Shown: piece by piece, positions 16,934-41,811 of the stretch
How positions within the stretch are numbered: position 1 is the stretch's first letter
Layout: each line of letters starts with the position of its first letter
From: Phytophthora quininea
Taxonomy: Eukaryota > Oomycota > Peronosporomycetes > Peronosporales > Peronosporaceae
Assembly: GCA_011947345.1 (NCBI GenBank)
Contig: JAAVTG010000408.1
Coordinates: 24,812 to 88,811 of the forward strand
Length of the DNA: 64,000 nt
Reading direction: 5' to 3'
Notes under the pieces: model-generated
What the model was told of the DNA's origin: nothing
Seen by the model: only the letters and a program-made list of their open reading frames with translations
Databases searched by the model: none
Made by a program: the position numbers and the translations under genes

Positions 16934-18379
16934 TCAGAAATCCTGATTGTGGAAAAACTTGTTAATCATCTCAAAGGAGACTGCGGGCTGATCCATTGGC
17001 ACCATGTGGCCCGAGTTGAAGACTCGAATAAATGCCAAATTCTCAAACGAACGCACGCGACCAGCATCCTTAGCTGCGGACGTCACGAATGGATGGTTTG
17101 GAGCCTCAGTAAACTGGGCTTTGCCGCTCCAGTCCAGTGCCATGACCCACGCCTGGTTACCCACCCAATTGCACATGATATCTGCGTCTCCAGCGTAAAT
17201 CAACACGCGCACTCCTGCCTCCAGCAGCTGCTTGACATCCTCAGCCGAAGACAACATTTCATCAAACACAAAGCCTGCCCCCACTGTCGCATCACACTCT
17301 CGCCAGGGCTGGGACTTGTGCACGTCAACGCCCAGTTCTTTCAGCACTACAGGCGAGTTCAAGTACTCGTCAATGTGTTCAAAGTGGAAGCACTTCATCA
17401 CGTTCTCTTCGTGACATGCTTGACGGATATCGTACGGGTTTCTTCCCGACTGGTAGTACGGTCCTTCCAGTGTTCCGAAACAGAATTCCATGGCGTCGAA
17501 GCACGTCAGTCGGTCCTTCTGACACTGCAGAATCAGCTCATGGCATACAGGCTGCGCCTTCTTCATGTCCTCGATCGCTTTCTCGTCCAGTAGTGACACA
17601 TTATACGAGTTGAAAGCCATGTCCACACTGTGCTGGTACTGCACGGCTGGATCTGTAAGTCCATTCCCCACCGCAATCCCTGCCAGATTAATGTGCAGAG
17701 CTCCCGGTTTTAAATGACGCAGCATATTCGCCTTTAGAATGTAGTTGGCTGCTGCCGGCACATAATGCCCGCCGTAACTCTCCCCGTCACGAAGAACGCT
17801 CTGTCTGTCAGCTCTGGGTGTGTCTTGAGGAACTCCTGGAGGAACCAGTAGATGTTTTCAGCAACATTGAGCTCCCCGAGTCGTAGTCCACTTTGGGACC
17901 GTATGAGTATCCGACGCCGGTCGGTTGGTCCAGCCAGATGACATTGGCCTCTTGATTCCACGAGTAAGGGTTGCCCTTGGTGGTTAGATCTGGTTGGACA
18001 TGGCACGGCCCATTTTCGGCCAGCAAGGCCATCATACTGGAGCAGCCGGGACCCCCGTCAGCCACAGCACCAAAGGGTCCTGCTGAGGAGCTGAATTGGA
18101 CTCGACAAACCAGTAGAAATAGTGGTCGTCGTCCTTATTGGGGAGTTTGACGTAGCCTGTTTCATGGGCAGTCAGGCCGCAGAAGAACTCTTGGGTGGAG
18201 ACGGTGGATCCTTTCAGGCTCTGGAGAGACGAGTCTTGGTGGACGATGAACGCCAAACAGAGTAGGAAAGTCACCCCCGCAATAGCCACGAGGCTGGAGC
18301 GAGTGGTCGAACGACGGAAGTTCCAGACGGAGCCGTCGGTGACCCCAACAAGAGGCGTCGACTCGGTCGTGCGGCTCAT
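16934..18379 (-). CDS. S10 serine carboxypeptidase 1, membrane-anchored
   Basis: The start is the ATG at 18379. The N-terminus carries E-S-T-P-L-V, then a hydrophobic segment (about residues 30-50, [11 protein letters not shown]), then the peptidase domain ([21 protein letters not shown]). The triad is present once two shifts are corrected: Ser in G-E-S-Y-G-G-H-Y, Asp in [11 protein letters not shown], His in [10 protein letters not shown]. The shifts are at C5 (18052-18056, in the oxyanion-hole G-G-P-G-C-S-S) and C4 (17782-17785, at the catalytic Ser). Both need one more base of the same run. It removes C-terminal residues from peptides, probably in the vacuole/lysosome or at the cell surface. 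No intron. Confidence 0.8.
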
Positions 18380-18471
18380 TTTGATACAAAAATCTCAAGT
18401 GAAGTGGAATGAAAAGCTCATGAGATTTGTGGAAAAAGGTGCAGGGAATTGAGCGAAGACTTTCGGCAGCT
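18380..18471. promoter_or_regulatory. 92-bp divergent promoter between carboxypeptidases 1 and 2
   Basis: Two carboxypeptidase ATGs face away from each other across 92 bp, so both 5' regions must be shared here. No TATA box or named oomycete initiator could be assigned with confidence. Parts of the 5' UTR may overlap. Confidence 0.4.
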
Positions 18472-19938
18472 ATGACGACGGAGAGCACGCCGTTGCTAGA
18501 TGGTTTTACGGTTGAGCGAGCTCACAAGTACCGTGCCCCTCTCCAGGCGTTGATCGGCTTGGTTTGTCTCCTCCTTGGGATCGGTGCACTTCAAGGGTTG
18601 CTTCGCAGAGCATTGCCAAGTGACGACGTCCAAGCCAAGCCAACAGTCAGGACGACGCCCGATGGACTTCCGACCGACTACTTCTGCGGAGACACCAAGC
18701 AGGACTCGGGCTACATCAAGCTGCCCAACAAAGTGGACGACAACTACTTCTTCTGGTACTTTGAAGCTCGACGCAGTCCCGAGACGGCACCGTTGGTGTT
18801 GTGGCTGACCGGCGGACCGGGTGGGTCGAGTATGTTGGCGCTGCTGACCGAGAACGGACCGTGTCGGGTGCTGCCGGACTTGTCGACGGAGCTCCATCCG
18901 TACTCGTGGACTAACGACGCCAACGTGGTGTGGCTGGACCAGCCCACCAACGTCGGCTTCTCGTACGGCCCCGACCCGCACGACGCCGACACCAGCGAAG
19001 ACAATGTCGGAGAGAACATCTTCTGGTTCCTGCAGGGGTTTCTGGAGCGCCATCCAGAGCTGCAAGACCGAGAGTTTTTCATCTCGGGCGAGAGCTACGG
19101 CGGCCACTACGTCCCTGCAGCCGCCCACTTCATTGCCCAGCAGAATCATCACAAACCTGACGGAGCAGTGAATATCAACCTGCAAGGCATCTCGATCGGG
19201 AACGGCTGCACGAACCCTGTCGTCCAGAACCCGCACTTCATCGACATGGCAACCAACGCCTACAACGTGTCGTTCGTGAGCGAAAGCGAGCTGGTCCAGC
19301 TCAAGGCTGAAGCTGCTGTGTGTGAGAAACAAATGGAGGCCTGTCAGTCCAACACGAGCGTGTGTTTCGATGCGGAATCCTATTGCGATGATAAGCTCAG
19401 CAGTCCGTTCATCGCCGCCAAGCGCAACCCGTACGACATCCGCCAGCCGTGCCCGACCAGCGACACGGACGTGCTCAAGTGCATCGACAATGGCCCCGTC
19501 ACGCCGTACCTGAACTCGGCCAACGTGCGGGAGTTTCTTCGCGTGGACAAGCGCGTGGGCGAGTGGCAGATGTGCAACTTCGACGTCAACAAAGCGTTCA
19601 CCGACTCGTTCGACGTCATGCTGTCCAGCAGCTCGTTTGTCGCTGATCTGCTCGACGATGGAGTACGTGTATTGATCTACGCTGGCGACGCGGACCTCAT
19701 GTGCAACTGGTCGGGCAATTTGGCGTGGCTGCAAGCGCTGAAGTGGACCGGCGCGGAGGCTTTCAACGCTGCCGAGACACACAACATGGTTATCGATGAC
19801 GATAGTGCTGGATCGGTGATCTCGTCGAGTGCACTCACGTTCGCTCGCGTGTTTAGTGCCGGTCACATGGTTCCTCAAGATCAGCCTGCGGTGGCGTTGG
19901 AGATGATCAACAAGTTCTTTGGAAATGTTTCGCTCTGA
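18472..19938 (+). CDS. S10 serine carboxypeptidase 2, membrane-anchored, intact
   Basis: 488 residues from the ATG at 18472, chosen because it begins the family N-terminus with E-S-T-P-L-L. A hydrophobic segment spans about residues 25-45, followed by a short stalk. The peptidase domain starts at D-Y-F-C-G-D-T-K-Q and shows W-L-T-G-G-P-G-G-S-S (oxyanion hole), S-G-E-S-Y-G-G-H-Y (Ser), Y-A-G-D-A-D-L-M-C-N-W (Asp) and S-A-G-H-M-V-P-Q-D-Q-P (His). Several N-x-[ST] sites and paired Cys fit a luminal or extracellular domain. The peptidase domain is almost identical to that of the copy at 34135-35646, while the N-terminal ~65 residues and the last four differ. No intron, no frameshift. Confidence 0.92.
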   Translation: MTTESTPLLDGFTVERAHKYRAPLQALIGLVCLLLGIGALQGLLRRALPSDDVQAKPTVRTTPDGLPTDYFCGDTKQDSGYIKLPNKVDDNYFFWYFEARRSPETAPLVLWLTGGPGGSSMLALLTENGPCRVLPDLSTELHPYSWTNDANVVWLDQPTNVGFSYGPDPHDADTSEDNVGENIFWFLQGFLERHPELQDREFFISGESYGGHYVPAAAHFIAQQNHHKPDGAVNINLQGISIGNGCTNPVVQNPHFIDMATNAYNVSFVSESELVQLKAEAAVCEKQMEACQSNTSVCFDAESYCDDKLSSPFIAAKRNPYDIRQPCPTSDTDVLKCIDNGPVTPYLNSANVREFLRVDKRVGEWQMCNFDVNKAFTDSFDVMLSSSSFVADLLDDGVRVLIYAGDADLMCNWSGNLAWLQALKWTGAEAFNAAETHNMVIDDDSAGSVISSSALTFARVFSAGHMVPQDQPAVALEMINKFFGNVSL

Positions 19939-20055
19939 AAATTGATATGCAAGCAAGTAAGACCAGCACAGTGGAATTTGTGCAGTAACACTAGTGATGA
20001 ATGCTGATTCTGAATTGCAACGGCTATATCATCAGCCCGTGGACTGGAGAAAGCC

Positions 20056-21169
20056 TCACTGCCGATCACCACTGCCACCGGTCGAAACATGCTCCAACAA
20101 CCACTTCAACTCCGTTTTATACTGCAGTAGCAGTCCTTGGCGGTGCTCGAACCACTCGCGCGTTTTCGTGATCGTCACGAAGGCTTCACCGTTCGCATAA
20201 TCGGCTTCTATTCGGAACGATAGTTTCTTACGCGTCCACTTGGCAGCGAAGTTGCGAGCTTCTTGAATGTCTTTAAACCGTTTTCCTTTCACTCCAGTAA
20301 TGGTCGTCGGAGTTTCGGCTCCGTGCAAGAACGCCTCCACCTTGTCGTCAGGAAAAGACTTATCGTGCATTTCCCACGAGAATGGTTTGTCCAGTCCGCG
20401 GATTTGGTGGTTCAGCCACTTGATGCGCGTCGAAGCGAGACCTTCCAGTGCAGTAAATCTATCACTCGCTTTGTCAAGACTGGCACTGTCCAGCTGCGTT
20501 ACGATCGCATCAGTCACCGGTTGTAGCAGACTCGGGTCCACTTGCTTGAACTTGTTCACCACTATTTCAAAAGTACTCTTATTGTCACTCGTAATGACCA
20601 CCTTCCACAGCAAACCAACCCACTTGGACAGGCAGAGTTCTTCATCCTTCAGAGTCACCGCATACGCCACAGCGGCTTCCAGTATCGCTTCTTGGGCAGG
20701 CCCCTTATCCAAACTATCGACAATGTTCAGTGCCATTTCGATGTCTAACATTTTGACATGGCGATATTGAGGACCTCGCACTTTACTTTCTAGTGCGTTG
20801 AGCACGGCTTGATCAATGACACTCCATGGGAATGTACGCGCAATCTTGATCAAGCCGGGAACTATTGCTAGGTTTGTTTCCTTCGGTTTGAATCAACTTG
20901 CCAGCAATTTCTTCTGAGAGAGGAAGCGGAACCGATCCGACCCCATCGATTTCTAGTCTTGACAAGGCAGGTAGCGGCTCTGCTTGCCCACCAAAAGAGA
21001 ACTCTCCAGCGTTTTCACCCGCACGAGCCAACGCTTTGTTTATTTGGGAACACGCCGCCTCACGCGGAGCTAGCACGTCTTTCGGGTCTCCAACGACACC
21101 AAATGGCCACTCGTCTTCGAAATCTTTATAACGCTTCTCGTCAACGTGTTCGTCGCAGCTGCTACCCAT
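20056..21169 (-). pseudogene. dioxygenase-family copy D with the catalytic core deleted
   Basis: Starts at the ATG at 21169. About 115 residues of the family N-terminus follow (W-P-F-G-V-V-G-D-P, E-F-S-F-G-G-Q-A, then L-S-E-E-I-A-G-K-L-I). The sequence then jumps near 20880 straight into the helical C-terminal region, so the HxD...H core is gone. The jump also changes frame. From 20853 to 20056 one open frame gives the complete C-terminal region and tail, ending G-G-S-G-D-R-Q. That part is nearly identical to copy G (44736-47154) and to the fragment at 52861-53394, so the deletion is recent or the C-terminal part has been homogenised. Confidence 0.7.
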
Positions 21170-21328
21170 TTGGTAAAATAACTGTGTTCCAAGACGTGAA
21201 TTCGGAAAGGCACCAACGGTTTGGTCAAGTCCCGACACATCAATCAAGGTAGATAGAAATCGGCCACACCCAATCTCGAACGAAGAAAATCTCGTTTGGT
21301 TACCACTACGTAGATCAAGTGTCTTGGT

Positions 21329-23851
21329 TCAATCGAGTCGGGGCCGCTTGCGCTCACTGGCACCTGAATCAGCGCTGCTGTCGAATTGTTCCATCAGAGT
21401 CTGGCGCTCTGACTGATACCGAAGCAGTTCCTTTTGGTGGCTAGCAAACCACGTGCGCGTCTTCGTGATGACCACATAGGCGTCCTGCCCTCTTCCTTCG
21501 GGCTCCAACTCGAAGGAAGCGTTGATTTGCTTCTCTCGCATCCACTTTGCCGCGTAATTTCGGGCATGCTTAATGCCGTTGAAAGAACGCACGCCGATCG
21601 TATTCATCGTTACGTCTGGTCCTCGTAAGAATGCTTGCACCCGAGCATTGTCTGCAAACTGCGCATTGGGCATTTCCCACGAGAATGGCTGCCCCAATGC
21701 TTGGAGTTGAAGACTCAGCCACTCAGTACGCAGAGCAGCAATGGACGACAGCACGGCAAACTTGTCATCGGCTGCATCAATGCCACTTAAGTGCTGAGAG
21801 AACGCCTCGACGACGGGATGTAGCAAGCTAGGATCTGCTCGCTTAAACCTGGCCGCAACAGAGTTAAAAGTGTTGCTGTATTCGCTACGAATGGCCCACT
21901 TCCAGAGTAAGCTGATCGACTTTGAGGAGCACAAGACCTTGTCACTCAGACAATTAGCTTTCTCTACAACAGCATTGAGCAATGCTTGTTGAGCAGCTCC
22001 TGGTTCCAGACCGTCCGCAAGTCTTAAGGTCATTTCAAAATCAGTGTTTGTAGGAGCTCGAGCGTAGAGTGAGAACCCCATGCCAGTGTCATCAACTGCG
22101 CCATTTAGCGAGTTCAGTACCGCTTGCCCAATCTCATTCCAATCGAACGTGCGTACGACCGAGACAATTGCGGGGATCAAAGCTTCTTTGTGTTCCTGTT
22201 GTTTCAACCGGCTGAAGAAGGTGGCGAAGAACAAGTTGACGAGCGATGAGTCGCCAGCGTCCACAAGCAATTCGCACAGCCCACGGCATAATCCCACAGA
22301 CACCGAATTGGTTTGATCCCACGAATACGTACTCTTCTCCTCTGCCAATTTCGTAGTCACTGTGTCCATGAACGTGCGAAGCGCTGCAGCGTTGACGGGC
22401 TTGTGAGCCTGTAGTGCGCCTGTAGCGGCGTCCACGTTGATGAATTTCAGCGCATTTTCAACAGCTTGCACTGCGGGCCAAGCGACGATCGCGTATCTCG
22501 AGTACGTCGTGTCCCTCGTAGCGCCTTCATTTCCCAAGTATCCTTCAAAGGTGCTGTTTCCGTGAGCTTTCCACATATTCGAAAGCGACTCGCGACCAGG
22601 ATTAAGAAAGTTAAGCTTCACAGTATCTTCCGGGGTGTTTGTTGCTGGTCCCTATTAAACACCCCAATATTCAGCTTATTCTCCTTCGAGCGTCCATGGT
22701 TCTTCCCACTCATAGAAAACCAAGTGATACGTTCGTCGCGCCGGTCTTCTTCCCAGCTCCCAGTATCCCGGCCATCTTCCCAGTGGTGCACTTTATGCGA
22801 TAGCTGAGCGATGAAGAAGTGCAGCTTCTTGTCACCCGTGAGAATCGAGTTTGCTTCCTCCAGCGCTTGAAAGCGAGCTCGGTCGACGCCTTTGAGCGCT
22901 CCACAGCCTAAATCTTCTATACTTTTACCCGTATACTCGTGTGACAGCAGCAGCGCAAAGGAGTCATCTCCACTCAAACCGACTAATAGCTGCTGCCAGG
23001 TCTTCACTCAATGGCCTGCTAAGATCTTTGCGCAGATGACGCATCGTTGGCGGCAAGCAGACCGAGTAAACCAATACTAGGCGATATCCACTGGTCACTG
23101 TCTCCAAAGCGTGTTCAGCGTCTGCATAATGCACTGCGTAGTGAGGAACGTACGCTGCCGTACCATCTTTCTTGCCAAAATCATGACGATACTGCACGTC
23201 TTTGCCTCGATAGACCACCAGGTCTCCTCCTTCGTGCAGCGTCGGCAGTTGGATGACCAACGTCGCCACCATTCCGTCCTCCTTCTCTGTATCTTGGTGT
23301 TTGACGAAGTGACCGCCTTCTCCATAGACCAACAGCTTGTACAGCACACACTGCAGCGGGACGTCCTTGTAGCCTAACCTGTCTGCAATGGTCGCACTCA
23401 GCTGCTTAATACCTTGCTGCCACAATGGATTTTTGACTTGCACTTGGTCTGGTTGCAGCTGCCAACTCTTGCGGACATTTTCGTCCATCAACGTGTCCAA
23501 CTTCCGACCGAAAGGAGACTTGACACTCACTGCGATGAGTTTGTTAGCTGCGTCGTGTCCTAAGGGCAAGGATCGACCCCACTCCATTGACGAATAGTCC
23601 AGGCATGGATGGTAATGTATCGGCCCTCCTCCGAAGGAATACTCGCCTGCATTCTCCTCCGCCCTTGATAGTAAGCTACTGACTTCGTTGCAGATGGCTC
23701 CCACTGGACTGAGCACTGTATCGGGGTCTCCTACGCCGCCGAAAGGCCACTTGCCATCGGAGAAGATCTCTTCGGCGTCTGGGACTTCGTCACCGCGCTC
23801 GTCGTCGCTGCCGTAGCCGTAGTTGCGGCGGCCTCGACCGTACCAGGGCAT
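21329..23851 (-). CDS. Fe(II)/2OG dioxygenase-like protein, copy E
   Basis: The best N-terminal half of the family: from the ATG at 23851 the frame runs 295 residues through the entire dioxygenase core. It holds K-H-Q-D-T-E-K (HxD), G-G-D-L-V-V-Y-R, H-Y-A-V-H-Y-A-D-A-E-H (distal His) and G-Y-R-L-V-L-V-Y-S (2OG Arg). Two frame changes follow, one at about 22985 (looks like one extra base, not at a homopolymer) and one at about 22655. The C-terminal 430 residues are open to 21329 and end in a basic R-K-R-P-R motif that could act in nuclear import. If the shifts are sequencing errors the protein is about 830 residues. The P4H-type core hydroxylates protein side chains in known relatives; the substrate here is unknown. 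Confidence 0.65.
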
Positions 23852-24011
23852 CGTTTGCTGTGGATACTGCTATTTTTCAACGTGGTTTTCTACCAATCAA
23901 ATCGATTGGCGCCAAATATTTTGAAAGTGCTTGGGGACTCGTACGGATCCTTTGATGGCACATCAGTTGCATTCGACTCCGTCGTCGAGCTAGCATGCAG
24001 CATGAGTACAA

Positions 24012-24280: not shown

Positions 24281-25788
24281 ATGGGACGTGTCAACGAGAA
24301 GACCGAACTTCTTCCTGCTGTCCAAGCCATCAATGGGTCCACAAGCAACAAACTCAAGATCAAGAGGGTTTGATACTCTCTTCTATCCTGGCGGCGGTGG
24401 TGGTGGTTGGTGCTGGGCTTTGGTGGGCATTCTTCAACGACTACAAGACTGAGCAATACATCTGCGGTAATACCAAGAACGAGGCCGGATACATCCATCT
24501 CCCTAATAAGGTCGACGACCACTACTTCTACTGGTTCTTCGAGGCGCAGCACTACGCGAACACAGCGCCGTTGGTTATTTGGCTAACGGGAGGACCTGGT
24601 GGGTCGAGTCTATTGGCGCTGTTCAACGAGAACGGACCGTGCCGCATTCAGGACGACCTCACCACCAAGGCCCACCCACACTCGTGGACGAATGGAGCGA
24701 ACATGATTTGGCTCGACCAACCGACCGGCGTCGGATTCTCGTACAGCTCCGGTGGAGACCGCGACTTCAACGAGACGAATGTGGGCGAGAACTTGTACTG
24801 GTTCTTGCTGGGCTTCCTCGACAAGCACCCAGAGTTCGATGGACGCGCGTTCTTCCTGACGGGGAGAGCTATGCTGGACATTACGTTCCTGGCGCAGCTC
24901 ACTACATTTGGGAGCAGAACAAGGTCAAGCCTGCCAAAGCGAAGCACATCAACCTGCAGGGCATTGCAATCGGTAACGGGTGGACAGACCCCGTCCTACA
25001 GGTATGAACTTCGCTTTGTAGTGCTTGGTTAGCATTCTCATATTCACTTCTTCCTTCAGTTCCTGCATACTTCGGACATGCTCGACAACTCGTACAACAT
25101 CACACTACTGAACGACACTGCGGCCGCGGAATTCAGAGCCAACTCAGCAACGTGCGCAAACTTGACGCGAGTGTGTCAGGACACTTCAACCGAAGAAGGT
25201 TGTGCTGGACCGGACTCCTTTTGCAGCGATAACGTGATCCTTCCTTTGTTCGCCAACTTCACCGGACGGAACCCGTACGACATCCGGGAACACTGCGACT
25301 GGGTGGACTTTGGCTTCTGTCACGGAGTCCCATTGATCGAGGGATATTTGAAACAGGACCACGTCAAGGAGTACTTGGGCGTGGATCGGGAGTGGGTCGG
25401 TGGCAGCGATCAAGTGGGAGAAGACTTCATCATCGACTACTCGCAGGGTTTTGACAGCTACGTGGCCGACCTGCTCAACGACGGCATTCGCGTGCTTCTC
25501 TACGTCGGTGACGCCGATACGCTGTGCAATTACGCTGGCAATAAGGCGTGGATCGACGCGCTGGAATGGAAGTACCAGAGCGATTTCAACGCAGCGGAGG
25601 AACACTCGCTTTTAACTCGCGACCCGCTCGACCCGGAGGCTGCTTTAACGGAGTCTGGGGTCGTGAGGTTCTACGACAGCCTGGCACTTGTGCGCATTTT
25701 CAACGCTGGCCACATGGTGCCGACCCACCAGCCCGCAGCTTCGTTGGATCTCATCGACAAGTTCTTCAAGAATGAAGCGCTTGCGTAA
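24281..25788 (+). CDS. S10 serine carboxypeptidase 3, membrane-anchored
   Basis: The start is the ATG at 24281, giving an N-terminus with E-K-T-E-L-L that matches carboxypeptidase 5. After a shift at G3 (24366-24368) a hydrophobic segment follows (L-A-A-V-V-V-V-G-A-G-L). The peptidase domain has W-L-T-G-G-P-G-G-S-S. The catalytic Ser motif is reached only by adding one G to the G4 at 24861-24864, giving G-E-S-Y-A-G-H-Y-V-P. Exon 1 ends at 25001; a 58-bp intron (25002-25059, GTATGA...TTCAG) falls after D-P-V-L-Q. Exon 2 has Asp in Y-V-G-D-A-D-T-L-C-N-Y and His in N-A-G-H-M-V-P-T-H-Q-P. C-terminal exopeptidase, probably vacuolar or surface. Confidence 0.8.
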
Positions 25789-25943: not shown

Positions 25944-27485
25944 ATGGCGAAGAACGAGCACACTCCACTGGTAGCGCAGCCACTGAACGGCAGTACTAAC
26001 GCGGTCACGACCAGCGGCAAGAAATCGTTCCTGCTGAAGTTTGTGTTTGGTAGCGCGTTGCTCGTCCTGGCGTTGTGGCTGATTCAAGACCACGGACATT
26101 CCGCAGCGAATACTTCGACCGGGGGATCGTTTGTCTGCGGTGTCACCAACAACACTGCCGGGTACATCAGGCTCGCCAATAAGGCAGACGACCATTACTT
26201 CTACTGGTTCTTTGAGTCTCGCAGCAGCCCCGACACGGACCCACTGGTGTTGTGGCTGACCGGCGGACCTGGAGCTTCCAGCTTGTTCGCCTTGTTGACG
26301 GAGAATGGGCCTTGCGCCGTCAACGCTGATTTGTCTACCACGTTCAATCCGTACTCGTGGAACACCAACGCCAACATGATCTGGCTGGACCAACCGACTG
26401 GGGTGGGCTTCTCGTTCGGCTCCCCTGCAGACAAGGACTACAACGAAACCAACGTTGGAGAGAATATCTACTGGTTCTTGCGAGGCTTCTTGGAGCGACA
26501 CCCTCAGTTCGAAGGTCGAGAGTTCTTCATCACGGGGAGAGTTACGGAGGACACTACGTCCCCGCGGCAGGCCACTACATTTGGAAGACAAACAAGGAAA
26601 ATAATGGGAGCGGCGAAGTACCGAAGATCAATCTGAAAGGCATCGCGATAGGCAACGGACTCACCAACCCAGTCATCCAGGTAGGGCTTGCAATAAGCTT
26701 GGAGTTGGGTGGCGAGGAACTAACTTGTTACTTTTTTGCAGTACGCTTACTACCAGGATATGAACCACAATCGATACAACATTTCGATGCTGACAGAAGT
26801 AGAGGAGCAGCAGATGAAGCTCGACAGCGTTGAGTGCATCGACTTGACCCAAGAATGTCAAATGGCACCTCGTAACGGGTCCATTTGCACGATGGCGCAG
26901 CAATGTTGGAACGACAAGCTGGTGGGTCCCTTCATGAAGGCTAACCGCAACGGCTACGACATTCGAGAATTCTGCAACAACAGCGACCCGACTGCAGCTT
27001 GCGGCGAGAACCCAGCGATCCACGAGTATCTGAACTCGGAGGTTGTGCGGAAGTACCTGAACGTCGACTCTCGCTACCCAGTGTGGACCGAAGTCAACAG
27101 CGAGGTGGAATCTACTTTCACCGCGGACGGGGACTGGTCCATGCCATTCCACCAGTTCGTTGCAGACTTGGTCAACGACGAGCTGCGCGTGTTGGTGTAC
27201 GCCGGCGACGCTGATTTGATGTGCAATTGGGTCGGCAATCGAGCGTGGTCGTTGGCTTTGGACTGGAAGGGCAAGGACGGCTTCAACGCTGCCAACGAGC
27301 GAGCTTTCATCGCGCACGACCCGTTGCTCCCAAACGCAAGCGAGGACATTGTTGGAGGCGAGGTGCGTTCCTACGAGAATTTCGCCTTCGTGCGGGTATA
27401 CGATGCCGGTCACATGGTGCCGATGAACCAACCGGTCATCGCATTAGACCTCATCAATAAGTTCTTCGCCGGCAGCGACTACTAG
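25944..27485 (+). CDS. S10 serine carboxypeptidase 4, membrane-anchored
   Basis: Starts at the ATG at 25944 with E-H-T-P-L-V in the first ten residues and a hydrophobic segment at about residues 30-50 (V-F-G-S-A-L-L-V-L-A-L-W-L-I). The peptidase domain has [13 protein letters not shown]. The catalytic Ser motif [10 protein letters not shown] appears if the G4 at 26534-26537 is read as G5. A 61-bp intron (26681-26741, GTAGGG...TTGCAG, with CTAAC branch site) lies after N-P-V-I-Q, in phase 0, at the same place as in copies 3 and 5. Exon 2 has Asp in Y-A-G-D-A-D-L-M-C-N-W and His in D-A-G-H-M-V-P-M-N-Q-P. Same orientation as copy 3, 155 bp downstream of it. Confidence 0.82.
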
Positions 27486-27652: not shown

Positions 27653-29158
27653 CTAGAGCGTCTCGTTCTTCAGGAACTGGTTAATCATCTTGAGAGCGAC
27701 GCGGGGCTGGTCCATTGCGGCCATGTGGCCTGCATTGTGTACGCGCACGAACGTCAAAAGCCCGTCGTGGGTCCACACGGATCCGACCGCTGAGTCATCA
27801 AACTCGTCCACCATCAAGTAGTGACTCTCGACCGCCTCAAACTCCTGTTTGTGAGGCCACTCGAGCTTCTTCATCCACGCCAGACCGCCGTACCAATTGC
27901 ACACCAAGTCTGCGTCGCCGTGGTAGATCAGCACACGCACAGAGCCGTCGCTTAGGACCGCAGCGACGTCCTGCTCGAAGGTCTTCATTAAGTCTGCGTC
28001 AAAATTGGCTTCTACTTCGCTCGAGACCGACTGCCACGGCGCTGGATGCACCTCAGACACGTTCAGGTACGTGCGCATTGCGTCGGAATTGAGGAACTTC
28101 GTAATGCGCGGCACCAAGTCGTCGTAGCAATTGATCGGGTCCAGCTCCGTGCACTCCTGGCGGATGTCCATCATGTTGCGGCCGGCAGCAAAGTACGCCC
28201 CCATCACATTGAACTCGCAAAAGTTCCCGGCATCGCTACACACGCTCGCGTTGGTCTGGCACTGTTTCACTAGAGCTGTGCACTGCTTCTCCGCAACCTT
28301 GGCCTTGGCAAGTGTATCATCGTCCATGAGTTTGATGCCGTACGCGTTCTTGACCATGTCCAAACCGTGTTCGCTCTATCAACAGCACATTAGAATCACA
28401 CTCACAGAATATCGACCAAAACCCGATGTCTTTACCTGCACGACAGTGTTGACCAGTCCATTGCCGATGGCAATCCCGTGCAGGTTCATTCTCGTCGAGT
28501 TTGTGGCCTTGTTCTCCCTCCAGATCTTGTGCGCTGCAGCGGGTACGTAATGACCGGCATAGCTCTCCCCGGTAATAAACAGCGGTCTGCCTTCGAACTG
28601 CGGGTGCTTGTCCAAGAAGCCCGTCAAGAACGCGTAGATGTTGTCCTGCACATCTCCTTCGTTATGGTCTGCATCTGCTTCAACTCCGTAGGAATACCCG
28701 ACATTGGTCGGCTGGTCCAGCCAGACCACATTGGCTTCCGAGTTCCACGAGTAAGGGTTCATCTTGGTCGTCAGGTCCTTCTTGACAGAGCACGGTCCAT
28801 TCTCGCTCAGTAGCGTGAAGAGACTGGAACACCCAGGCCCACCACTGAGCCACAGCACCAACGGGTCGGTGGCAGGAGTGTGTCTGGACTCGAACAGCCA
28901 GTAGAAGTAGTAGTCGTCCAGCTTGTTGGAGAGTTTGATGTAGCCTGCCTCATTACGGCTGCCGTCGCATTCGAGGGCCCCAGCGCGGTGCTTGTGGTGG
29001 TGGAAAAGCACCAGCCACACGCCCGTCCCCACCAGCGCAAGCGCCGCTACAACAGCAGAGAACAGCAGACATCGCTTGATCCGGAGCTTGTTGCTGGCCG
29101 AGCCGTAGATCGCCTGCACGGCAGGCAGCAAGCGGGTCTTCTCATTCACGCGAGCCAT
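27653..29158 (-). CDS. S10 serine carboxypeptidase 5, membrane-anchored, intact
   Basis: The ATG at 29158 opens an N-terminus with E-K-T-R-L-L, then a hydrophobic segment at about residues 29-50 (L-F-S-A-V-V-A-A-L-A-L-V-G). Exon 1 includes W-L-S-G-G-P-G-C-S-S and T-G-E-S-Y-A-G-H-Y-V-P. Here the codon before Gly is ACC, so only four Gs are needed and the frame is unbroken. A 60-bp intron (28376-28435) sits after N-T-V-V-Q. Exon 2 has Asp in Y-H-G-D-A-D-L-V-C-N-W and His in N-A-G-H-M-A-A-M-D-Q-P; the usual V-P after the His motif is A-A. It converges on copy 4 with 167 bp between stops. A small inverted-repeat element lies 25 bp upstream of its ATG. Confidence 0.88.
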
Positions 29159-29182
29159 TTTGCGAAAACAAGATTTTTGGGC

Positions 29183-31795: not shown

Positions 31796-32289
31796 ATGGC
31801 CAACGAGAACACGCCGCTGCTCGCCTCGGACGCGCTCAAGCGCAAGCGCATCATCAGCATCACCGGGGCCGTGGTGGTGCTCGCCGCCATCGCCGTCGTG
31901 CTGTGGCTCACGCTCAGCGGCCACAGCTCCAAGAGCTCCGAGGTGGCGGTGCAGGCCACGCCCGAGCCCACGGCCGCCCCCGCTCTGCGAACGGAGGCCC
32001 CCACTGAAGCGCCGACGGAGGCTCCTACCACTGAGCCGCCGACGGACGCCCCCGCCCGCCCGCTGACCCGCAGCCTGCTGTGGAACCCGTGCCGGCCGCG
32101 GTGCCGGAGCCGCAGCCAGCCCCTGAACAGGCCCAGCCTCAGCCGGCGCAGCCTGCGGCCGCTGCCGATCCTCAACCGGCGCCGGCTGACGCTGCTCCTG
32201 CTCAGCCGGCGGACGCCGCTCCAGTCCAACCGGCTGAAGCTGCCCCGGCGCAGCCTGCTGATGCCGCCCAGCCTGTGGACAATCAGTAG
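31796..32289 (+). CDS. orphan membrane anchor with Pro/Ala/Gln-rich stalk, no peptidase
   Basis: The ATG at 31796 starts E-N-T-P-L-L and a basic patch (K-R-K-R), then one hydrophobic segment at about residues 22-42 (V-V-V-L-A-A-I-A-V-V-L-W). This is the same N-terminal architecture as the carboxypeptidases. After it comes a Thr/Glu/Pro/Ala repeat region (E-A-P-T repeats). At the C5 run 32049-32053 the frame must shift by one to continue into a long Ala/Pro/Gln-rich repeat (A-Q-P-A-D-A-A-type units) ending V-D-N-Q at 32289. In the unshifted frame the downstream residues become Arg/Leu-rich, unlike any stalk. No peptidase domain follows. Probable type II membrane protein with a mucin-like ectodomain; function unknown. 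Confidence 0.6.
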
Positions 32290-32595
32290 AGAGAGCGAAC
32301 GTGACTTGTCGTGAACCAACTAGCGGCCTGATTATAAGGGACCCCCAAATGCCATTTTTGCCGTTGCTTTCGTGTGTTCTTCCGTCGTTGCTGGCTGACA
32401 CGAGGTCCCGGACTGGTTTGACGCCGCCGATCCTGAAGATTTGCGAAGCCACTCGTGCGTGTTGCACCCAAGCAGAAGATCACTCCGGATCGAGAGATGC
32501 AGCTCGAATCCGAATCCAGACACGCACTGCGACACGATGGGGACCTCTCGCTGACAGGCCCCGCCTGGTCGCCTCCTCAGCCACTTCGCGATTAG

Positions 32596-34112
32596 ATGGC
32601 GACTGAGACGACTCCGCTGCGCAATGGCGACCCGCGTCGGTCCCCCGACCGATCCCGGGCCACCACCGTCGGTTGGCCGGACTGGCGGTCTTCGCCTTCG
32701 TCATGCTGGCGATCGCGGTGTTAACCACCACTAGCTTTGGCCGAAAGGCGCCGACGCCGCCACCGGTCAAGGTGACGCACACACGAGTCCCCGCTCAACA
32801 GTTCCAAGCCGGCGACCCCGCACCGATCCCGAAAGACTGGTTCCGCTGCGGCGCCGACGACGGCGAGTCCGGCTACGTCGCTTTGGCCAACAACGGAGAC
32901 CAGTACTTCTACTGGTTCTTCGAGTCGCGTAGTGCCCCGGAACAGGACCCATTAATCTTGTGGTTGACCGGCAGTGGTCCCGGCTGTTCCAGTCTGTCGT
33001 CGCTGCTGACTGAAAACGGACCGTGCAGTCTGAACGCGGACTTGAGTACGGCCTTGAACCCGTACTCGTGGACGACGGCGGCTAGTGTCATTTGGCTGGA
33101 CCAACCGACTAATGTCGGGTTCTCCTATGGACGGGAAGCCGACTCAGACTACACCGAGCAAGACGTGAAGGAAAACATCTACTGGTTCTTGCATGGCTTC
33201 CTGGACAAACATCCGGAGCTCGAAGGAAGAGCTCTGTTCCTAGCTGGAGAAGGGTTAGCTAGCCACTACATCCCGGCAGCAGCTCATTACATTCGGAGTG
33301 AGAACCGCGTGGTGGAAGAAGCCAACGCAACAATTCGGCTCAATCTGCAGGGAATTTCAATCGGCAATGGACTGGTCAACCCGGTTGTTCAGATTCCGCA
33401 CTCGTTGGACATGGCCGTCAAGAACCCGTACAACATCAGCTTACTGAACTCGACGCAACTGACGCTCGCGAAAGAAGCAGCACCAGTGTGTGAGGGACTA
33501 CTACGGCAATGTCAAATGAGCTCCGACGTGTGTGGAGAAGCCTCGACGTACTGCTCTAGTTCTCTTCTGGACGGTTTGAAGGGAGTCCACCGGAACCCGT
33601 TCGACATCCGGAAGAAGTGCTTCGCTCATGATGCAAGAGATTGCTACAACACCAGCACAGTGAGCGAGTATCTCAACTCGAATGCTGTTCGGAACTACCT
33701 CAACGTGTCGGATAAAGTACCAACGTGGCGAGAATGCTCCAACGCATCAAACACGCAGCTCCGTGCTGATCTGCTGAAGAATTTGGACGGATACGTTGCC
33801 GAATTACTGGACGAAGGCTCCGTTCGAGTGTTGGTCTACAACGGAGACGCCGATTTGGTGTGCAATTGGTACGGAAGTCGAGCATGGACGCGGGATCTCA
33901 AGTGGAAGCACCAGAAGGCCTTCAACGAAGCAGAGGGACGAGACTTGCTGGTGCCTGGTGAAACGGGCCCTGTCGAAGTTGGATCGATCCGGTCGTACGA
34001 GACCCAATTCACATTCGTGCGAGTGTTCAGGGCTGGCCACAAAGTGCCGATGGATCAGCCGTTCATTGCACTTGAGATGATAAACAGATTCATCACGAAC
34101 CAAAAGCATTAA
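32596..34112 (+). CDS. S10 carboxypeptidase-like protein 6 lacking the catalytic serine
   Basis: The N-terminus from the ATG at 32596 has E-T-T-P-L, then after one shift near the C5 run 32642-32646 a hydrophobic segment (V-F-A-F-V-M-L-A-I-A-V-L). The remaining 479 residues are one open frame. The nucleophile motif, G-E-S-Y-[AG]-G-H-Y in the other copies, reads G-E-G-L-A-S-H-Y, so Ser is replaced by Gly. The oxyanion-hole loop carries one extra residue (T-G-S-G-P-G-C-S-S). Asp (Y-N-G-D-A-D-L-V-C-N-W) and His (R-A-G-H-K-V-P-M-D-Q-P) remain. It cannot work as a serine peptidase by the known mechanism but is otherwise well kept, so it looks like a pseudoenzyme with a binding or regulatory role. 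Converges with copy 7, 22 bp apart. Confidence 0.85.
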
Positions 34113-34134
34113 GATTACCCAGCAAGAATAATAA

Positions 34135-35646
34135 TTACAGCTCTTGCTTTTGGAAGAACTTGTTGATCATCTCCAACGCCACCGCAGGCTGATCTTGAGG
34201 AACCATGTGACCGGCACTAAACACGCGAGCGAACGTGAGTGCACTCGACGAGATCACCGATCCAGCACTATCGTCATCGATAACCATGTTGTGTGTCTCG
34301 GCAGCGTTGAAAGCCTCCGCGCCGGTCCACTTCAGCGCTTGCAGCCACGCCAAATTGCCCGACCAGTTGCACATGAGGTCCGCGTCGCCAGCGTAGATCA
34401 ATACACGTACTCCATCGTCGAGCAGATCAGCGACAAACGAGCTGCTGGACAGCATGACGTCGAACGAGTCGGTGAACGCTTTGTTGACGTCGAAGTTGCA
34501 CATCTGCCACTCGCCCACGCGCTTGTCCACGCGAAGAAACTCCCGCACGTTGGCCGAGTTCAGGTACGGCGTGACGGGGCCATTGTCGATGCACTTGAGC
34601 GCGTCCGTGTCGCTGGTCGGGCACGGCTGGCGGATGTCGTACGGGTTGCGCTTGGCGGCGATGAACGGACTGCTGAGCTTATCATCGCAATAGGATTCCG
34701 CATCGAAACACACGCTCGTGTTGGACTGACAGGCCTCCATTTGTTTCTCACACACAGCAGCTTCAGCCTTGAGCTGGACCAGCTCGCTTTCGCTCACGAA
34801 CGACACGTTGTAGGCGTTGGTTGCCATGTCGATGAAGTGCGGGTTCTGGACGACCGGGTTCGTGCAGCCGTTCCCGATCGAGATGCCTTGCAGGTTGATA
34901 TTCACTGCTCCGTCAGGTTTGTGACGATTCTGTTGGGCAATGAAGTGGGCGGCTGCAGGGACGTAGTGGCCGCCGTAGCTCTCGCCCGAGATGAAAAACT
35001 CTCGGTCTTGCAGCTCTGGATGGCGCTCCAGAAACCCCTGCAGGAACCAGAAGATGTTCTCTCCGACATTGTCTTCGCTGGTGTCGGCGTCGTGCGGGTC
35101 GGGGCCGTACGAGAAGCCGACGTTGGTGGGCTGGTCCAGCCACACCACGTTGGCGTCGTTAGTCCACGAGTACGGATGGAGCTCCGTCGACAAGTCCGGC
35201 AGCACCCGACACGGTCCGTTCTCGGTCAGCAGCGCCAACATACTCGACCCACCCGGTCCGCCGGTCAGCCACAACACCAACGGTGCCGTCTCGGGACTGC
35301 GTCGAGCTTCAAAGTACCAGAAGAAGTAGTTGTCGTCCACTTTGTTGGGCAGTTTGATGTAACCCGAGTCCTGCTTGGTGTCTCCGCAGAAGTAGTCGGT
35401 CTCAGCTCCATTGGAAGTCAACGAGATCAGTAGTGCCTTGGCTTGGAAATGGCCGGCCACGGAGTTGGGGATCGCGATGCGCCACACGGTGACGCCCAGT
35501 AGCAGACAGAACGCTCCGATCAGAGCGAACGTCGGCACTGGAAGCTTGTGGACTCGAGCATAGCTGGCAACGGACGATACTGAGTCGGAGCTTCTGCTAC
35601 GGGACAGAACTTGGCCGTTGAGCAATGGGGTGATCTCCGAGGACAT
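34135..35646 (-). CDS. S10 serine carboxypeptidase 7, membrane-anchored, intact
   Basis: 503 residues from the ATG at 35646, which begins M-S-S-E-I-T-P-L-L. Upstream in-frame sequence lacks family similarity, so this start is preferred. A hydrophobic segment lies at about residues 33-55 (F-A-L-I-G-A-F-C-L-L-L-G). From D-Y-F-C-G-D-T-K-Q to near the C-terminus the protein is almost identical to copy 2 (only two differences noticed), including the triad motifs [20 protein letters not shown] and S-A-G-H-M-V-P-Q-D-Q-P. The anchor and stalk are unrelated to those of copy 2, and the last four residues also differ. This pattern suggests gene conversion over the peptidase domain. Confidence 0.92.
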   Translation of the reverse strand: MSSEITPLLNGQVLSRSRSSDSVSSVASYARVHKLPVPTFALIGAFCLLLGVTVWRIAIPNSVAGHFQAKALLISLTSNGAETDYFCGDTKQDSGYIKLPNKVDDNYFFWYFEARRSPETAPLVLWLTGGPGGSSMLALLTENGPCRVLPDLSTELHPYSWTNDANVVWLDQPTNVGFSYGPDPHDADTSEDNVGENIFWFLQGFLERHPELQDREFFISGESYGGHYVPAAAHFIAQQNRHKPDGAVNINLQGISIGNGCTNPVVQNPHFIDMATNAYNVSFVSESELVQLKAEAAVCEKQMEACQSNTSVCFDAESYCDDKLSSPFIAAKRNPYDIRQPCPTSDTDALKCIDNGPVTPYLNSANVREFLRVDKRVGEWQMCNFDVNKAFTDSFDVMLSSSSFVADLLDDGVRVLIYAGDADLMCNWSGNLAWLQALKWTGAEAFNAAETHNMVIDDDSAGSVISSSALTFARVFSAGHMVPQDQPAVALEMINKFFQKQEL

Positions 35647-37264: not shown

Positions 37265-37390
37265 GACGCGGCAGCATCGAAGCCTTCGAGCTCATGACCC
37301 TGCAGCAATAAACATACTAATACACCCGCGTATACCATATCGAAAACAAACCGAAGTGCATTTGAATCAACTCCAGACGCTGCCTCAGGC

Positions 37391-37923
<533 letters not shown>

Positions 37924-38034
37924 GTTGCTACGTGGAACTGACTTGGAAAATGAATGGGCACGTGTCATAAAATTCATTTTGTGCACCACACCACTGTTTA
38001 AAATTGATTTTTTTCACTTCAACTTGCCTTCCAT

Positions 38035-38247
38035 TTAATCCTTCGGGTCACCTCTCCGCAGTCGTCTCGAGTCTCCGTAGGGGCCGATCAAGCGGATGAT
38101 CAGTGCCAGCATGAGCACTCCCACCAGCCACTGCATGATCCGGAGCTTCCGCCGAGTCCCCGTCGACCACTTGGCTCGGTTCTGCTGGTGGAGATGTCGA
38201 TCGTGGACCATCAAGGGCGTGCTCTCGTTCGCTGCAGAAGCCGCCAT
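38035..38247 (-). CDS. orphan 70-residue carboxypeptidase-type membrane anchor
   Basis: From the ATG at 38247 the frame gives N-E-S-T-P-L-M, a basic region (R-R-K-L-R), and a hydrophobic segment at about residues 42-60 (W-L-V-G-V-L-M-L-A-L-I-I-R-L-I). It then stops after a short charged tail at 38035. This is exactly the N-terminal cassette of the neighbouring S10 genes, with no peptidase domain downstream. It lies on the same strand as carboxypeptidase 8 but downstream of it, so it is not that gene's first exon. It may be a truncated copy or a small membrane protein in its own right. Confidence 0.5.
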   Translation of the reverse strand: MAASAANESTPLMVHDRHLHQQNRAKWSTGTRRKLRIMQWLVGVLMLALIIRLIGPYGDSRRLRRGDPKD

Positions 38248-38479
38248 GGTCGACGCTTGAGCATGCGCCGGCGTTTCCAGAAGTGACCTCACCTTTGCTT
38301 GCGATTGAATTATTGTACACAGCATACAAAGGCCAGTTCGAAGCTGTTGCTGCTCATTTCTGGACCGATACTAGTTGCGATTGTGAAGTTACCAGTAGGA
38401 AATGTTTAGGCAAGAACACGTTCAATGGCTTGTGGAGCTTCAGTACGGCTTCTTATTTGGAAGTATGCTATCTCCTTGT
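38248..38479. other. short intergenic stretch
   Basis: Between the orphan anchor and the end of carboxypeptidase 8. Nothing recognised. Confidence 0.4.
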
Positions 38480-39971
38480 TCAAAACGCTTGGTTGGTGAG
38501 GAACTTGTTGAGCATTTCCAGCGCAACTGCTGGTTGGTCTTGAGGCACCATGTGACCCGAGTTGAAAACCCGTAGGAATATGAACTGGTTGTTAAACGAC
38601 CGTACTTCGCCGGCATTCGTGCCATCCATCACTGATGAAAGCGTTAACGGGTGCCGCATTGAAACCTCGCTACCTTCCACTGCAGCGCCTTCGTCCACGC
38701 TTCGTTGCCGTACCAGTTGCACATCAAATCCGCATCACCAGTGTAGATCAAAACACGTAGATCATCGTTCAGCAAGTCCGCGACGTACGTGTTAAAAGGT
38801 TTCGCCAGGTCTGCTGTCATGTAGAACGCCACGTTCACTTGCATGTTGCACTCCTGCCACGCACCGACGCGCTTCGAGTCAACGCCCAGTGACGCGCGAA
38901 CGTTGGGGAGTCCAGGTACTTGGACACGTACGACATGTCGTAGCACTTGGTCGGGTCGTCCATGCGGGTGCACGGCATGCGGATGTCGTACGGGTTGCGG
39001 TCGGCCGACAACAGCGGTGCGAACAGCTTCTCGGTGCAGAAGTCGGTGCCGTCGTAGCACGCCGTCACGTTCTGCGGACACTGGGCCAGGATCTCTCCGC
39101 ACACGGGAGCCGCCTGTTTCATCTCCTGCAGCTGCGCGTCGTCCACCAGCGTGATGTTGTAGGCGTTCTCGATGGCCATGTCGATGTAGTGCGGCAGCTG
39201 GATGGAGGCCTGCGTGATGCCGTTGCCGATGGCGATGCCCTTGAGGTTGATGTGTTTGGTTGTGTCGGCGTTCTGCTTGTTCATCTGCCACACGTAGTGC
39301 GCGGCCACCGGCACGTAGTGTCCGCCGTAGCTCTCACCGGTGATGTAAAAGTCTCGGCCGGCCAGCTCCGGGTGCTTGTCGAAGAAACCCTGCAGGAAGT
39401 AGTAGATGTTCTCGCCCACGTTGTCCTCGCTGTCGTCGGCGTCCTGCTCGTCACCGTACGTGAAGCCCACGGTGGTGGGCTGGTCGAGCCACACGACGTT
39501 GCTCTCGTTGGTCCACGAGTACGGGTTGATACGTGTGGACAGGTCCGGCAGTACGTGGCACGGTCCGTTCTCCGTGAGCAGGGCCATCATACTGGAGCAG
39601 CCGGGTCCGCCGGTGAGCCAGAGCACGAGCGGGTCGGTGCTGGGCTGGCTGCGGGACTCAAAGTACCAGTAGAAGTAGTGGTCGTCCACCTTGTTGGGCA
39701 GTTTGATGTAGCCTGCGTCTTGGGTCGTGAGCCCGCAGAAGACCTCGTCGTCGCCGGTCGTTGCCGTCACCGGAACTGCTTCGGGTACGTCGCTCTTGCT
39801 CTCGTGAGCCCTCAGGTACAACGGTTCCCCCACGTACACCACCACAAGACAAGCGACGATCAGTGACAGAATAGCGATCAATGCCCGGCGGACGTTGCGG
39901 TTGCGAGCTTCCAGCCGCTCATAGTGCTGCAGGTTCGTGTCGATCGTCAACGGGGTCGTCTCCGTCGCCAT
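38480..39971 (-). CDS. S10 serine carboxypeptidase 8, membrane-anchored
   Basis: The ATG at 39971 begins M-A-T-E-T-T-P-L. A hydrophobic segment covers about residues 30-48 (A-L-I-A-I-L-S-L-I-V-A-C-L-V-V-V). The peptidase domain starts at V-F-C-G-L-T-T-Q-D-A-G-Y with W-L-T-G-G-P-G-C-S-S and [11 protein letters not shown]. The frame is lost at a G4 run (plus-strand 38905-38908; one more base restores V-R-A-S-L-G-V-D). More single-base losses show near 38645-38690 against its inverted twin at 40288-41811. Asp (Y-T-G-D-A-D-L-M-C-N-W) and His (N-S-G-H-M-V-P-Q-D-Q-P) are present. Intronless. Confidence 0.82.
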
Positions 39972-40287
39972 CTTGCTCCCGTCTTGTGCTTGGTCTGCTG
40001 CCAACCGGGGGAATTCCGAAGTGATGAGTGTGCGGGCCTCAGTCGAAGGCCACGCTGGACAAGATGAAGCGTAACGGACTGGAAAGATCGCAACGAATAA
40101 GACGCAGCTGTCTGCTTGCCAATCGACAAAGTGTCCTCCTGATTGTGGACACTTGCTCTCCATGGCGTGTTGCTTCTCTTGCGCAGGCTGCTGCGCTTGT
40201 CGCGGGCTCCGACGATAGGACGCTCTCGCCGTTCCGACCAGCGTCGGGCCCGTCCAACCTCATTTCCCGACTGAATTGCTTGTCGTC
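39972..40287. promoter_or_regulatory. 316-bp divergent promoter of the carboxypeptidase 8/9 palindrome
   Basis: The region between two outward-facing start codons in an inverted duplication. The arms are near-identical, but the centre, including both anchors and this spacer, is not. The two copies may therefore be regulated or sorted differently. Confidence 0.4.
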
Positions 40288-41811
40288 ATGGCGTCCGAGA
40301 CGACTCCGTTGAGAAGACCTCGCTGCAGTACAACGTCCGTCTGTGGCAGCGCGAGGAGACCCGCAAGCAAGAGCTACGTCGCGGCGGTCTGTTCGTCCTT
40401 GCGATCTCTGCGCTTTGTCTGCTCTTCACGTTCGGATCCGAATCTCTGGCTGGTATTAATGGAGACCATAGTGACCACAATGCTCAACCGGAAGTGCAGA
40501 CACGCAGCGACGGAAGCAGAACCGGTGACGACAACGACCGGCGACGACGAGGTCTTCTGCGGGCTCACGACCCAAGACGCAGGCTACATCAAACTGCCCA
40601 ACAAGGTGGACGACCACTACTTCTACTGGTACTTTGAGTCCCGCAGCCAGCCCAGCACCGACCCGCTCGTGCTCTGGCTCACCGGCGGACCCGCTGCTCC
40701 AGTATGATGGCCCTGCTCACGGAGAACGGACCGTGCCACGTACTGCCGGACCTGTCCACGTATCAACCCGTACTCGTGGACCAACGAGAGCAACGTCGTG
40801 TGGCTCGACCAGCCCACCACCGTGGGCTTCACGTACGGTGACGAGCAGGACGCCGACGACAGCGAGGACAACGTGGGCGAGAACATCTACTACTTCCTGC
40901 AGGGTTTCTTCGACAAGCACCCGGAGCTGGCCGGCCGAGACTTTTACATCACCGGTGAGAGCTACGGCGGACACTACGTGCCGGTGGCCGCGCACTACGT
41001 GTGGCAGATGAACAAGCAGAACGCCGACACAACCAAACACATCAACCTCAAGGGCATCGCCATCGGCAACGGCATCACGCAGGCCTCCATCCAGCTGCCG
41101 CACTACATCGACATGGCCATCGAGAACGCCTACAACATCACGCTGGTGGACGACGCGCAGCTGCAGGAGATGAAACAGGCGGCTCCCGTGTGCGGAGATC
41201 CTGGCCCAGTGTCCGCAGAACGTGACGGCGTGCTACGACGGCACCGACTTCTGCACCGAGAAGCTGTTCGCACCGCTGTTGTCGGCCGACCGCAACCCGT
41301 ACGACATCCGCATGCCGTGCACCCGCATGGACGACCCGACCAAGTGCTACGACATGTCGTACGTGTCCAAGTACCTGGACTCCCCAACGTTCGCGCGTCA
41401 CTGGGCGTTGACTCGAAGCGCGTCGGTGCGTGGCAGGAGTGCAACATGCAAGTGAACGTGGCGTTCTACATGACAGCAGACCTGGCGAAACCTTTTAACA
41501 CGTACGTCGCGGACTTGCTGAACGATGATCTACGTGTTTTGATCTACACTGGTGATGCGGATTTGATGTGCAACTGGTACGGCAACGAAGCGTGGACGAA
41601 GGCGCTGCAGTGGGAAGGTAGCGAGGGTTTCAATGCGGCACCCGTTAACGCTTTCATCACGAGTGATGGCACGAATGCCGGCGAAGTACGGTCGTTTAAC
41701 AACCAGTTCATATTCCTACGGGTTTTCAACTCCGGTCACATGGTGCCTCAAGACCAACCGGCAGTGGCTCTCGACATGCTCAACAAGTTCCTCAACGACC
41801 AAACACTGTAG
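40288..41811 (+). CDS. S10 serine carboxypeptidase 9, membrane-anchored
   Basis: Starts at the ATG at 40288 (M-A-S-E-T-T-P-L). In the frame entered just after this motif a good hydrophobic segment appears (G-L-F-V-L-A-I-S-A-L-C-L-L-F-T-F). From E-A-E-P-V-T at about 40515 it is an inverted near-copy of carboxypeptidase 8. Small losses relative to that twin are one G near 40690 (oxyanion loop), AC near 40762, AG near 41195, and the shared C4 at 41382-41385. The triad motifs match copy 8 ([22 protein letters not shown]). The last residues differ (N-D-Q-T-L versus T-N-Q-A-F). It is a pseudogene if these losses are real; indels at short repeats instead suggest sequence error. Confidence 0.78.

Follow-up and report, generated by a model that had tools for sequence, protein, structure and literature searches.

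The closest described counterparts of the motif reported here are the acidic dileucine sorting signals, written [DE]xxxL[LI]. In yeast Vld1 the signal is 233-EITPLL-238, and either loss of the last six residues, the two leucines included, or the E233A substitution alone impairs vacuole sorting by adaptor protein complex 3 (AP-3) (PMC5811209). Ypq1, with EQQPLL, is also AP-3 dependent, PQLC2 uses EREPLL, and a proline ahead of the dileucine has been noted for several cargoes of the alkaline phosphatase (ALP) pathway, that is, the AP-3 pathway (PMC4649669). Lysosomal signals include ETERLL of mucolipin-1 and DERAPLI of LIMP2 (PMC5297682), and a sequence of the type ExxxLV fills the pocket of sigma1 (PMC4018625). 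We analysed a window of 64,000 nucleotides from Phytophthora quininea (positions 24,812-88,811 of contig JAAVTG010000408.1, within the 87-Mb assembly GCA_011947345.1), which holds a cluster of nine genes for S10 carboxypeptidases, and found that the N-terminal tails of these enzymes carry a conserved signal with the core E-x-x-P-L. Its most likely role, judged from the sequences and held by us at a probability of roughly 55%, is adaptor-dependent delivery of the enzymes to the vacuole or lysosome.

Matches to the PF00450 profile above its curated cut-off define the S10 genes A to I of the window, nine in all and each in one piece or several, and nine mirrored S10 genes on contig C555, which is probably the other haplotype. 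A short hydrophilic tail opens each of the nine genes and two orphan anchors. The initial annotation had placed the motif E-x-T-P-L-[LVMT] in all carboxypeptidases. The shared motif is real, and the looser form E-x-T-x-L fits all 11 units (nine enzymes and two orphans) near the start; the pattern as first written, however, fits only 7 of the 11, namely A, B, D, G, H and orphans 1 and 2 (five of nine enzymes and both orphans). The other four units are one residue off, with EKTELL in C, EKTRLL in E and ETTPLR in F and I. As had also been described, the best hydrophobic segment begins 10-30 residues behind the motif in the eight units that share one open frame. Motif and anchor lie in different frames in three genes of the window: in C and F the tail frame differs from that of the listed catalytic open reading frame (ORF), and in I the frame shifts behind the tail.

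In its six frames the window contains the sequence E.TPL 10 times, against a mean of 1.40 and a maximum of 6 in 60 first-order Markov windows. With a Met no more than 25 residues upstream and a hydrophobic segment downstream, there are seven such units in the window and none in the 60 simulated windows, so that chance is excluded as the source of the motif. The codons of the motif differ at synonymous sites (CTT, TTG and CTG for Leu; CCT, CCG, CCA and CCC for Pro); it is therefore the protein that is conserved, not the DNA. On C555 the motifs are ESTPLV (A), ESTPLL (B), EKTKLL (C), ERTPLV (D), EKTRLL (E), ENTPLL (orphan 1), EITPLL (G), ETTPLT (H) and ETTPLR (I), which differ from those of the window only at position 2 in D and position 4 in C. 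A scan of C555 gave no copy of the tail of F or of orphan 2.

The motif is family-wide in these S10 proteins and extends beyond the window, as a survey of oomycete S10 N-termini, already proposed in the initial annotation, made clear. Two protein searches, from which the best 120 of 2237 matches (gene G, E <= 0.001) and the best 120 of 2820 matches were taken, yielded 156 S10 proteins. Wherever the organism is named, these proteins are from oomycetes; among the best 120 of 2237 matches to gene G, Phytophthora comes first with 74% identity. For the tail counts, a script kept 134 of the 156, namely those in which a tail and a hydrophobic segment precede a recognised domain block. Its domain pattern was looser than that of the earlier sets (91 of 120 for charge, 99 of 120 for tails), and its hydropathy cut was lowered from 1.7 to 1.5. 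The rows left out include truncated models, motif bearers missed by the domain pattern (e.g. P0015, P0026, P0060, P0063, P0084 and P0107), P0011, which has the motif and no hydrophobic segment, and P0009, P0095, P0120 and P0150, in which the hydrophobic segment begins at one of residues 1-4. E-x-x-x-L is present in 129 of the 134 tails (mean 24.87 and maximum 38 in shuffled tails), the five rows lacking it being kept in the counts; E-x-x-P-L is present in 108 (mean 2.06, maximum 8) and E.TPL in 76 (mean 0.18). When one protein per 70% cluster was taken (n = 50), ExxxL was found in 47, E..PL in 41 and E.TPL in 23, with 7.49 and 0.64 in shuffled tails for the first two. The control pattern Y..[LIVMF] (YxxPhi) was scarcely enriched (28 of 134, against a shuffled mean of 18.78 and maximum of 31).

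In an alignment of gene G with 49 homologs, hand-chosen from the 156 and all bearing tail and motif (the five motif-less rows are thus absent), E4 and L8 are invariant amid a tail that is otherwise hardly alignable. The list of invariant positions holds these two together with positions of the catalytic domain. Of the 99 tails in the first set 96 were aligned; position 3 of the motif is T in 78 of these, S in 13, A in 4 and L in 1, and position 4 is P in 78 and R in 9. Several Phytophthora have A at position 3 in their G subfamily (EIAPLL), and in the Saprolegniales of the second search this position is free (EKTPLF, EQAPLF, EKLPLF, EASPLV, ERLPLT, EYIPLR). Because of this freedom and the invariance of E4 and L8, the conserved core is E-x-x-P-L. 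On this sequence evidence, a short linear signal in the S10 tails is under selection.

The proteins are predicted to be of type II topology, with a cytosolic N-terminal tail and a single anchor. Of 91 proteins, 83 have a more positive flank ahead of the anchor than behind it, and 6 have flanks of equal charge. An AlphaFold2 model of gene G, made with a 50-row alignment (mean pLDDT 86.7), points the same way: residues 1-38 have a pLDDT below 50, residues 40-58 form a helix, and behind a weakly modelled stalk the S10 domain is predicted with confidence from about residue 90. This domain matches the structure of carboxypeptidase Y (1wpx, E 3.6e-78). Glycosylation sequons in the tails (13, against 16.4 expected) do not discriminate between topologies. 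Signal-peptidase cleavage behind the anchor is possible.

The suggested fit to the acidic dileucine signal is good in some respects and loose in one. An acid at -4 and Leu at 0 are present in 11 of 11 window units, Pro or Arg commonly stands at -1, and hydrophobic residues are enriched at +1, that is, at position 6. The strict form, with Leu or Ile at +1, is limited to 5 of 11 units (B, C, E, G and orphan 1) and to 31 of 134 homologs (75 when V, M and F are allowed). Taken over the whole family, the motif does not belong to [DE]xxxL[LI] in the strict sense; only the fitting copies do. Position 6 in the first set (n = 96) is L in 25, V in 21, R in 18, T in 16, N in 5, Q in 4, F in 3, I in 2 and S in 1, residues that account for 95 of the 96 tails. 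Among 47 cluster representatives it is hydrophobic in 26 (random tail residues 7.3, maximum 17) and A, G, D, E, K, P, S, C, W or Y in 2 (25.1 expected, minimum 13); such counts indicate that position 6 is constrained, not free. R, T, N or Q is found in 19 of the 47, against 13.4 for random tail residues; 4.9% of draws reach 19 or more.

Whole subfamilies have R, T, N or Q in place of the second leucine and keep that class on the tree. On a tree of 110 rows, 13 changes suffice for the labels hydrophobic, polar and none, against 40.6 when shuffled. This tree is a quick one, built from the catalytic part, in which the places of winE, winD, altC, C691 and C830 (and of short rows) are unsure. Since the labels cluster, the class at position 6 is old in several subfamilies, although near-copies contribute to the clustering. 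Within one protein, L and R are exchangeable, since orphan 1 has ENTPLL in the window whereas its seven relatives, with a similar anchor, have E[TK]TPLR.

The genome has the adaptor subunits that such a signal would need. Matches to Clat_adaptor_s include AP-2, AP-3 and AP-1 sigma, assigned by the best PDB match of the pieces, and a fourth that, judged by eye only, resembles AP-4 sigma; the C-terminal domain of AP-3 beta is also encoded. We propose the following scheme. The cluster enzymes would be type II S10 proteins in which a cytosolic tail, about 20-45 residues long, is followed by one anchor helix, a variable stalk and a luminal domain like that of carboxypeptidase Y. The tail would act as a linear sorting signal with the core E-x-x-[P/R]-L-(L/V/I/F or R/T/N/Q), in the manner of an acidic dileucine signal whose second hydrophobic position has been relaxed in oomycetes. 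Its Glu and Leu would be bound at the sigma/large-subunit site of an AP complex, and this complex, most probably AP-3 or else AP-1, would carry the enzyme from the Golgi to the membrane of the vacuole or lysosome. The motif, its conservation, the constraint on position 6 and the AP sigma subunits are read from sequence; topology, adaptor and destination we infer.

Several observations weigh against delivery by such a signal. R, T, N, Q or S stands at position 6 in 44 of the 96 aligned tails. The sigma segments RRYAGL/RHYATL and NVCEL, which form the lining of the dileucine site in solved complexes, are kept in the P. quininea subunits, and since these site segments look ordinary, the loosened position 6 finds no explanation in a special receptor. 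Beyond the S10 family the signal is scarce among the proteins inspected: EDAPLL was found in 2 of 30 amino-acid-transporter (Aa_trans) loci, as near-identical copies, and EASTLI inside a partial frame in two further ones, the first Met being uncertain in many Aa_trans ORFs; the single DPP-IV-type match in the genome has no such tail. The accounts of dileucine signals in PMC5811209, PMC4649669 and PMC4018625 lend, in their passages on these signals, no support to R, T, N or Q in place of the second leucine, and the corresponding passages of PMC13195334 and PMC13415926 give dileucine examples and nothing on tolerance there. For the leucines of Vld1 truncation is the only test, because the AITPAA form proved unstable (PMC5811209). 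The 'very few' S10 reported for the predicted secretome of A. euteiches speak for the scheme, but one S10 protein was identified by mass spectrometry among the secreted proteins of this species (PMC10084794), and another report, at variance with the low count, places S10 among the principal protease families of the core secretome (PMC8780586). Neither, in its passages on S10, says whether the secreted proteins are of the anchored kind.

The residue at position 6 may instead carry a code of its own, by which tails with L, V, I, F or M would be AP cargo bound for the vacuole and those with R, T, N or Q would, through the same core, meet another adaptor or bind with weaker affinity, and end elsewhere (surface or endosome). 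The clustering of the two classes on the tree, the near restriction of position 6 to two sets of residues and the excess of R/T/N/Q over random all suit this idea. Near-copies, however, also produce such clustering, orphan 1 and its relatives differ in class while their anchors are alike, and H (T) and I (R) differ at this position while their catalytic parts are near-identical, though both are of the polar class. We regard a two-class code as rather unlikely. A bolder version, which we offer as speculation with equally little confidence, is that E-x-x-P-L-z is a signal of the oomycetes' own, with z as a two-state switch (hydrophobic or R/T/N/Q) that distributes the carboxypeptidases and a non-catalytic anchor protein of the cluster among different compartments, the catalytic domains being kept similar by gene conversion.

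Dileucine signals are common to AP-1, AP-2 and AP-3 (PMC5297682, PMC13415926), AP-2 sigma is encoded in the genome, and the routes are indistinguishable by sequence; the enzymes could thus reside at the cell surface, facing the wall, with the motif serving only retrieval by AP-2 endocytosis. The main text of a plasma-membrane proteome of Saprolegnia lacks the word carboxypeptidase (PMC11302233), and we consider a surface location improbable.

Less probable still is a role outside trafficking, as a phosphorylation (TP) site or as a topogenic or oligomerisation element. T or S at position 3 in 91 of 96 first-set tails and P at position 4 in 78 of 96 would suit a TP site, but position 3 is A in EIAPLL and A, L, I, M or K in some Saprolegniales, position 4 is R in EKTRLL, and the invariant residues are E and L. 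The phosphosite reading was rejected, as T/S is not obligatory; the freedom of position 3 in Saprolegniales argues for a core of the AP type rather than a T/S site. That the motif is a functionless relic of common descent is very improbable: the genes are paralogous and some are recent copies, but E and L are invariant in a tail that has otherwise diverged, the pairs B/G and H/I keep the motif although they are only about 10-60% identical ahead of the catalytic part, and orphan 1 keeps it without being catalytic.

Delivery to the vacuole or lysosome remains the reading we prefer. Elsewhere in the genome, C691, C830 and one of the two C89 S10 genes have a signal-peptide-like start and no motif; the claim for all carboxypeptidases thus holds for the cluster and not for the genome. 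The starts of C691 and C830 fit the contrast drawn with canonical S10 enzymes and their cleaved signal peptides. Of the S10 genes outside the cluster one, on C197, has a similar tail, ERLPLT before a hydrophobic segment (L020 2071-2784), which is suggestive only, E..PL arising in about 1.5% of shuffled tails (2.06/134). This comparison covers the S10 genes with a settled N-terminus, which leaves aside the second C89 gene, C613, C606 and C229/C752. The PQ-loop family has 13 matches in the genome. In the literature on oomycete or type II S10 proteins, the title and abstract start of the best matches gave no anchored, tagged family, and the same parts of reports joining oomycetes and dileucine gave no such signal. 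The passages on S10 or carboxypeptidases in the Saprolegnia parasitica genome paper concern other matters (PMC3681718).

The units lie as follows. On the plus strand are B (18472-19938, 488 residues, open; motif ESTPLL at 18481-18498), C (24281-25788, with frame changes; EKTELL at 24296-24313, Met at 24281, in a frame other than that of the listed catalytic ORF), D (25944-27485, with frame changes; EHTPLV at 25956-25973), orphan 1 (31796-32314; ENTPLL at 31805-31822), the catalytic ORF of F (32703-34112; ETTPLR at 32605-32622, Met at 32596, frame changes ahead of the ORF) and I (40288-41811, with frame changes, the frame shifting behind the tail; ETTPLR at 40297-40314). On the minus strand are A (16934-18379, its S10 domain interrupted by frame changes both here and on C555; ESTPLV at 18347-18364, Met at 18379), E (27653-29158, in two reading-frame pieces; EKTRLL at 29126-29143), G (34135-35646, 503 residues, open, the modelled gene; EITPLL at 35620-35637), orphan 2 (38035-38247, 70 residues, tail and anchor only; ESTPLM at 38209-38226) and H (38480-39971, with a frame change in the window copy; ETTPLT at 39945-39962). 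Genes A to E, H and I were delimited from PF00450 matches and ORFs. In B and G the segments GESYGGH, AGDAD and AGHM were read, in E and H GESY[AG]GH in the stretch read, and in F GEGL, with Gly for Ser; the reading of catalytic residues covered these five genes.

Frame changes affect A, C, D, F, H and I in the window, and A, C and D shift at about the same domain position on C555. There H is open (497 residues), G and I change frame, and the copy of I has tail, anchor and the first part of the domain in one frame (391 residues). These changes may be introns, pseudogenes or assembly errors. Also on C555, a B-type tail and anchor (L012 ~1860-2117) are followed by other sequence; the catalytic part that would be the counterpart of B's lies about 2.6 kb away.

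Orphan 1 has a tail, an anchor and a stalk rich in P, T, E and A, and is a conserved gene lacking a catalytic domain. Six of its seven relatives are from Phytophthora, Peronospora and Bremia, and by locus number relatives adjoin S10 genes (P. rubi PR002_g1222 beside g1221; B. lactucae CCR75_003791 between 003789 and 003792). The ORF at 31796 was considered as the N-terminus of gene F and rejected, being a separate conserved gene with relatives of its own. Gene F and its three nearest listed relatives (P0092, P0112 and P0118) have Gly at the place of the catalytic Ser (GEG[LY]), and this group is likely, from its sequences, to be a conserved pseudoenzyme subfamily. In the pairs B/G and H/I, DNA identity over blocks of 60 columns is mostly 93-100% in the catalytic part and about 10-60% ahead of it; protein identity is 99% for B/G and 97% for H against the C555 copy of I. 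Because the edges of identity are sharp near the domain start, gene conversion or exchange appears to have acted on the catalytic part alone. A WPFG-type N-terminal stretch is common to three ORFs next to the S10 genes (20813-21169, 22964-23851 and 41847-42149), which may be a second repeated family interspersed among the cluster genes.

If the proposed role is correct, the tail offers a simple, testable handle on delivery to the vacuole or lysosome in oomycetes. It would also explain the possible loss of such S10 proteins from secretome predictions that discard transmembrane proteins, and would raise the question of whether the second leucine of the textbook signal is needed in this lineage.

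Carboxypeptidase Y and other S10 proteins (PF00450) share their catalytic domain with the cluster enzymes. Carboxypeptidase Y, however, is soluble and has a cleaved signal peptide, whereas the cluster enzymes have an uncleaved-looking anchor and a tail. Yeast carboxypeptidase S is the type II precursor of a vacuolar carboxypeptidase, but it belongs to another peptidase family and is sorted by ubiquitin, not by a dileucine signal. Yeast Pho8 has type II topology. It is a vacuolar hydrolase and an AP-3 dileucine cargo (PMC8591511, PMC4649669), and differs in being an alkaline phosphatase, not an S10 enzyme. In the signal itself, most oomycete tails depart from [DE]xxxL[LI] in lacking a second Leu or Ile (V, F, R, T, N or Q instead), and they add T or S at -2, in most of the first set, and a fixed place within the first residues. 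With the acidic dileucine signals of Vld1, Ypq1, PQLC2, LIMP2 and mucolipin-1 the S10 tails share an acid at -4, Leu at 0, mostly Pro or Arg at -1 and, as predicted, a cytosolic location. The likeness is closest in gene G, whose six letters EITPLL are identical to the AP-3 signal of Vld1, an identity that can be convergent.

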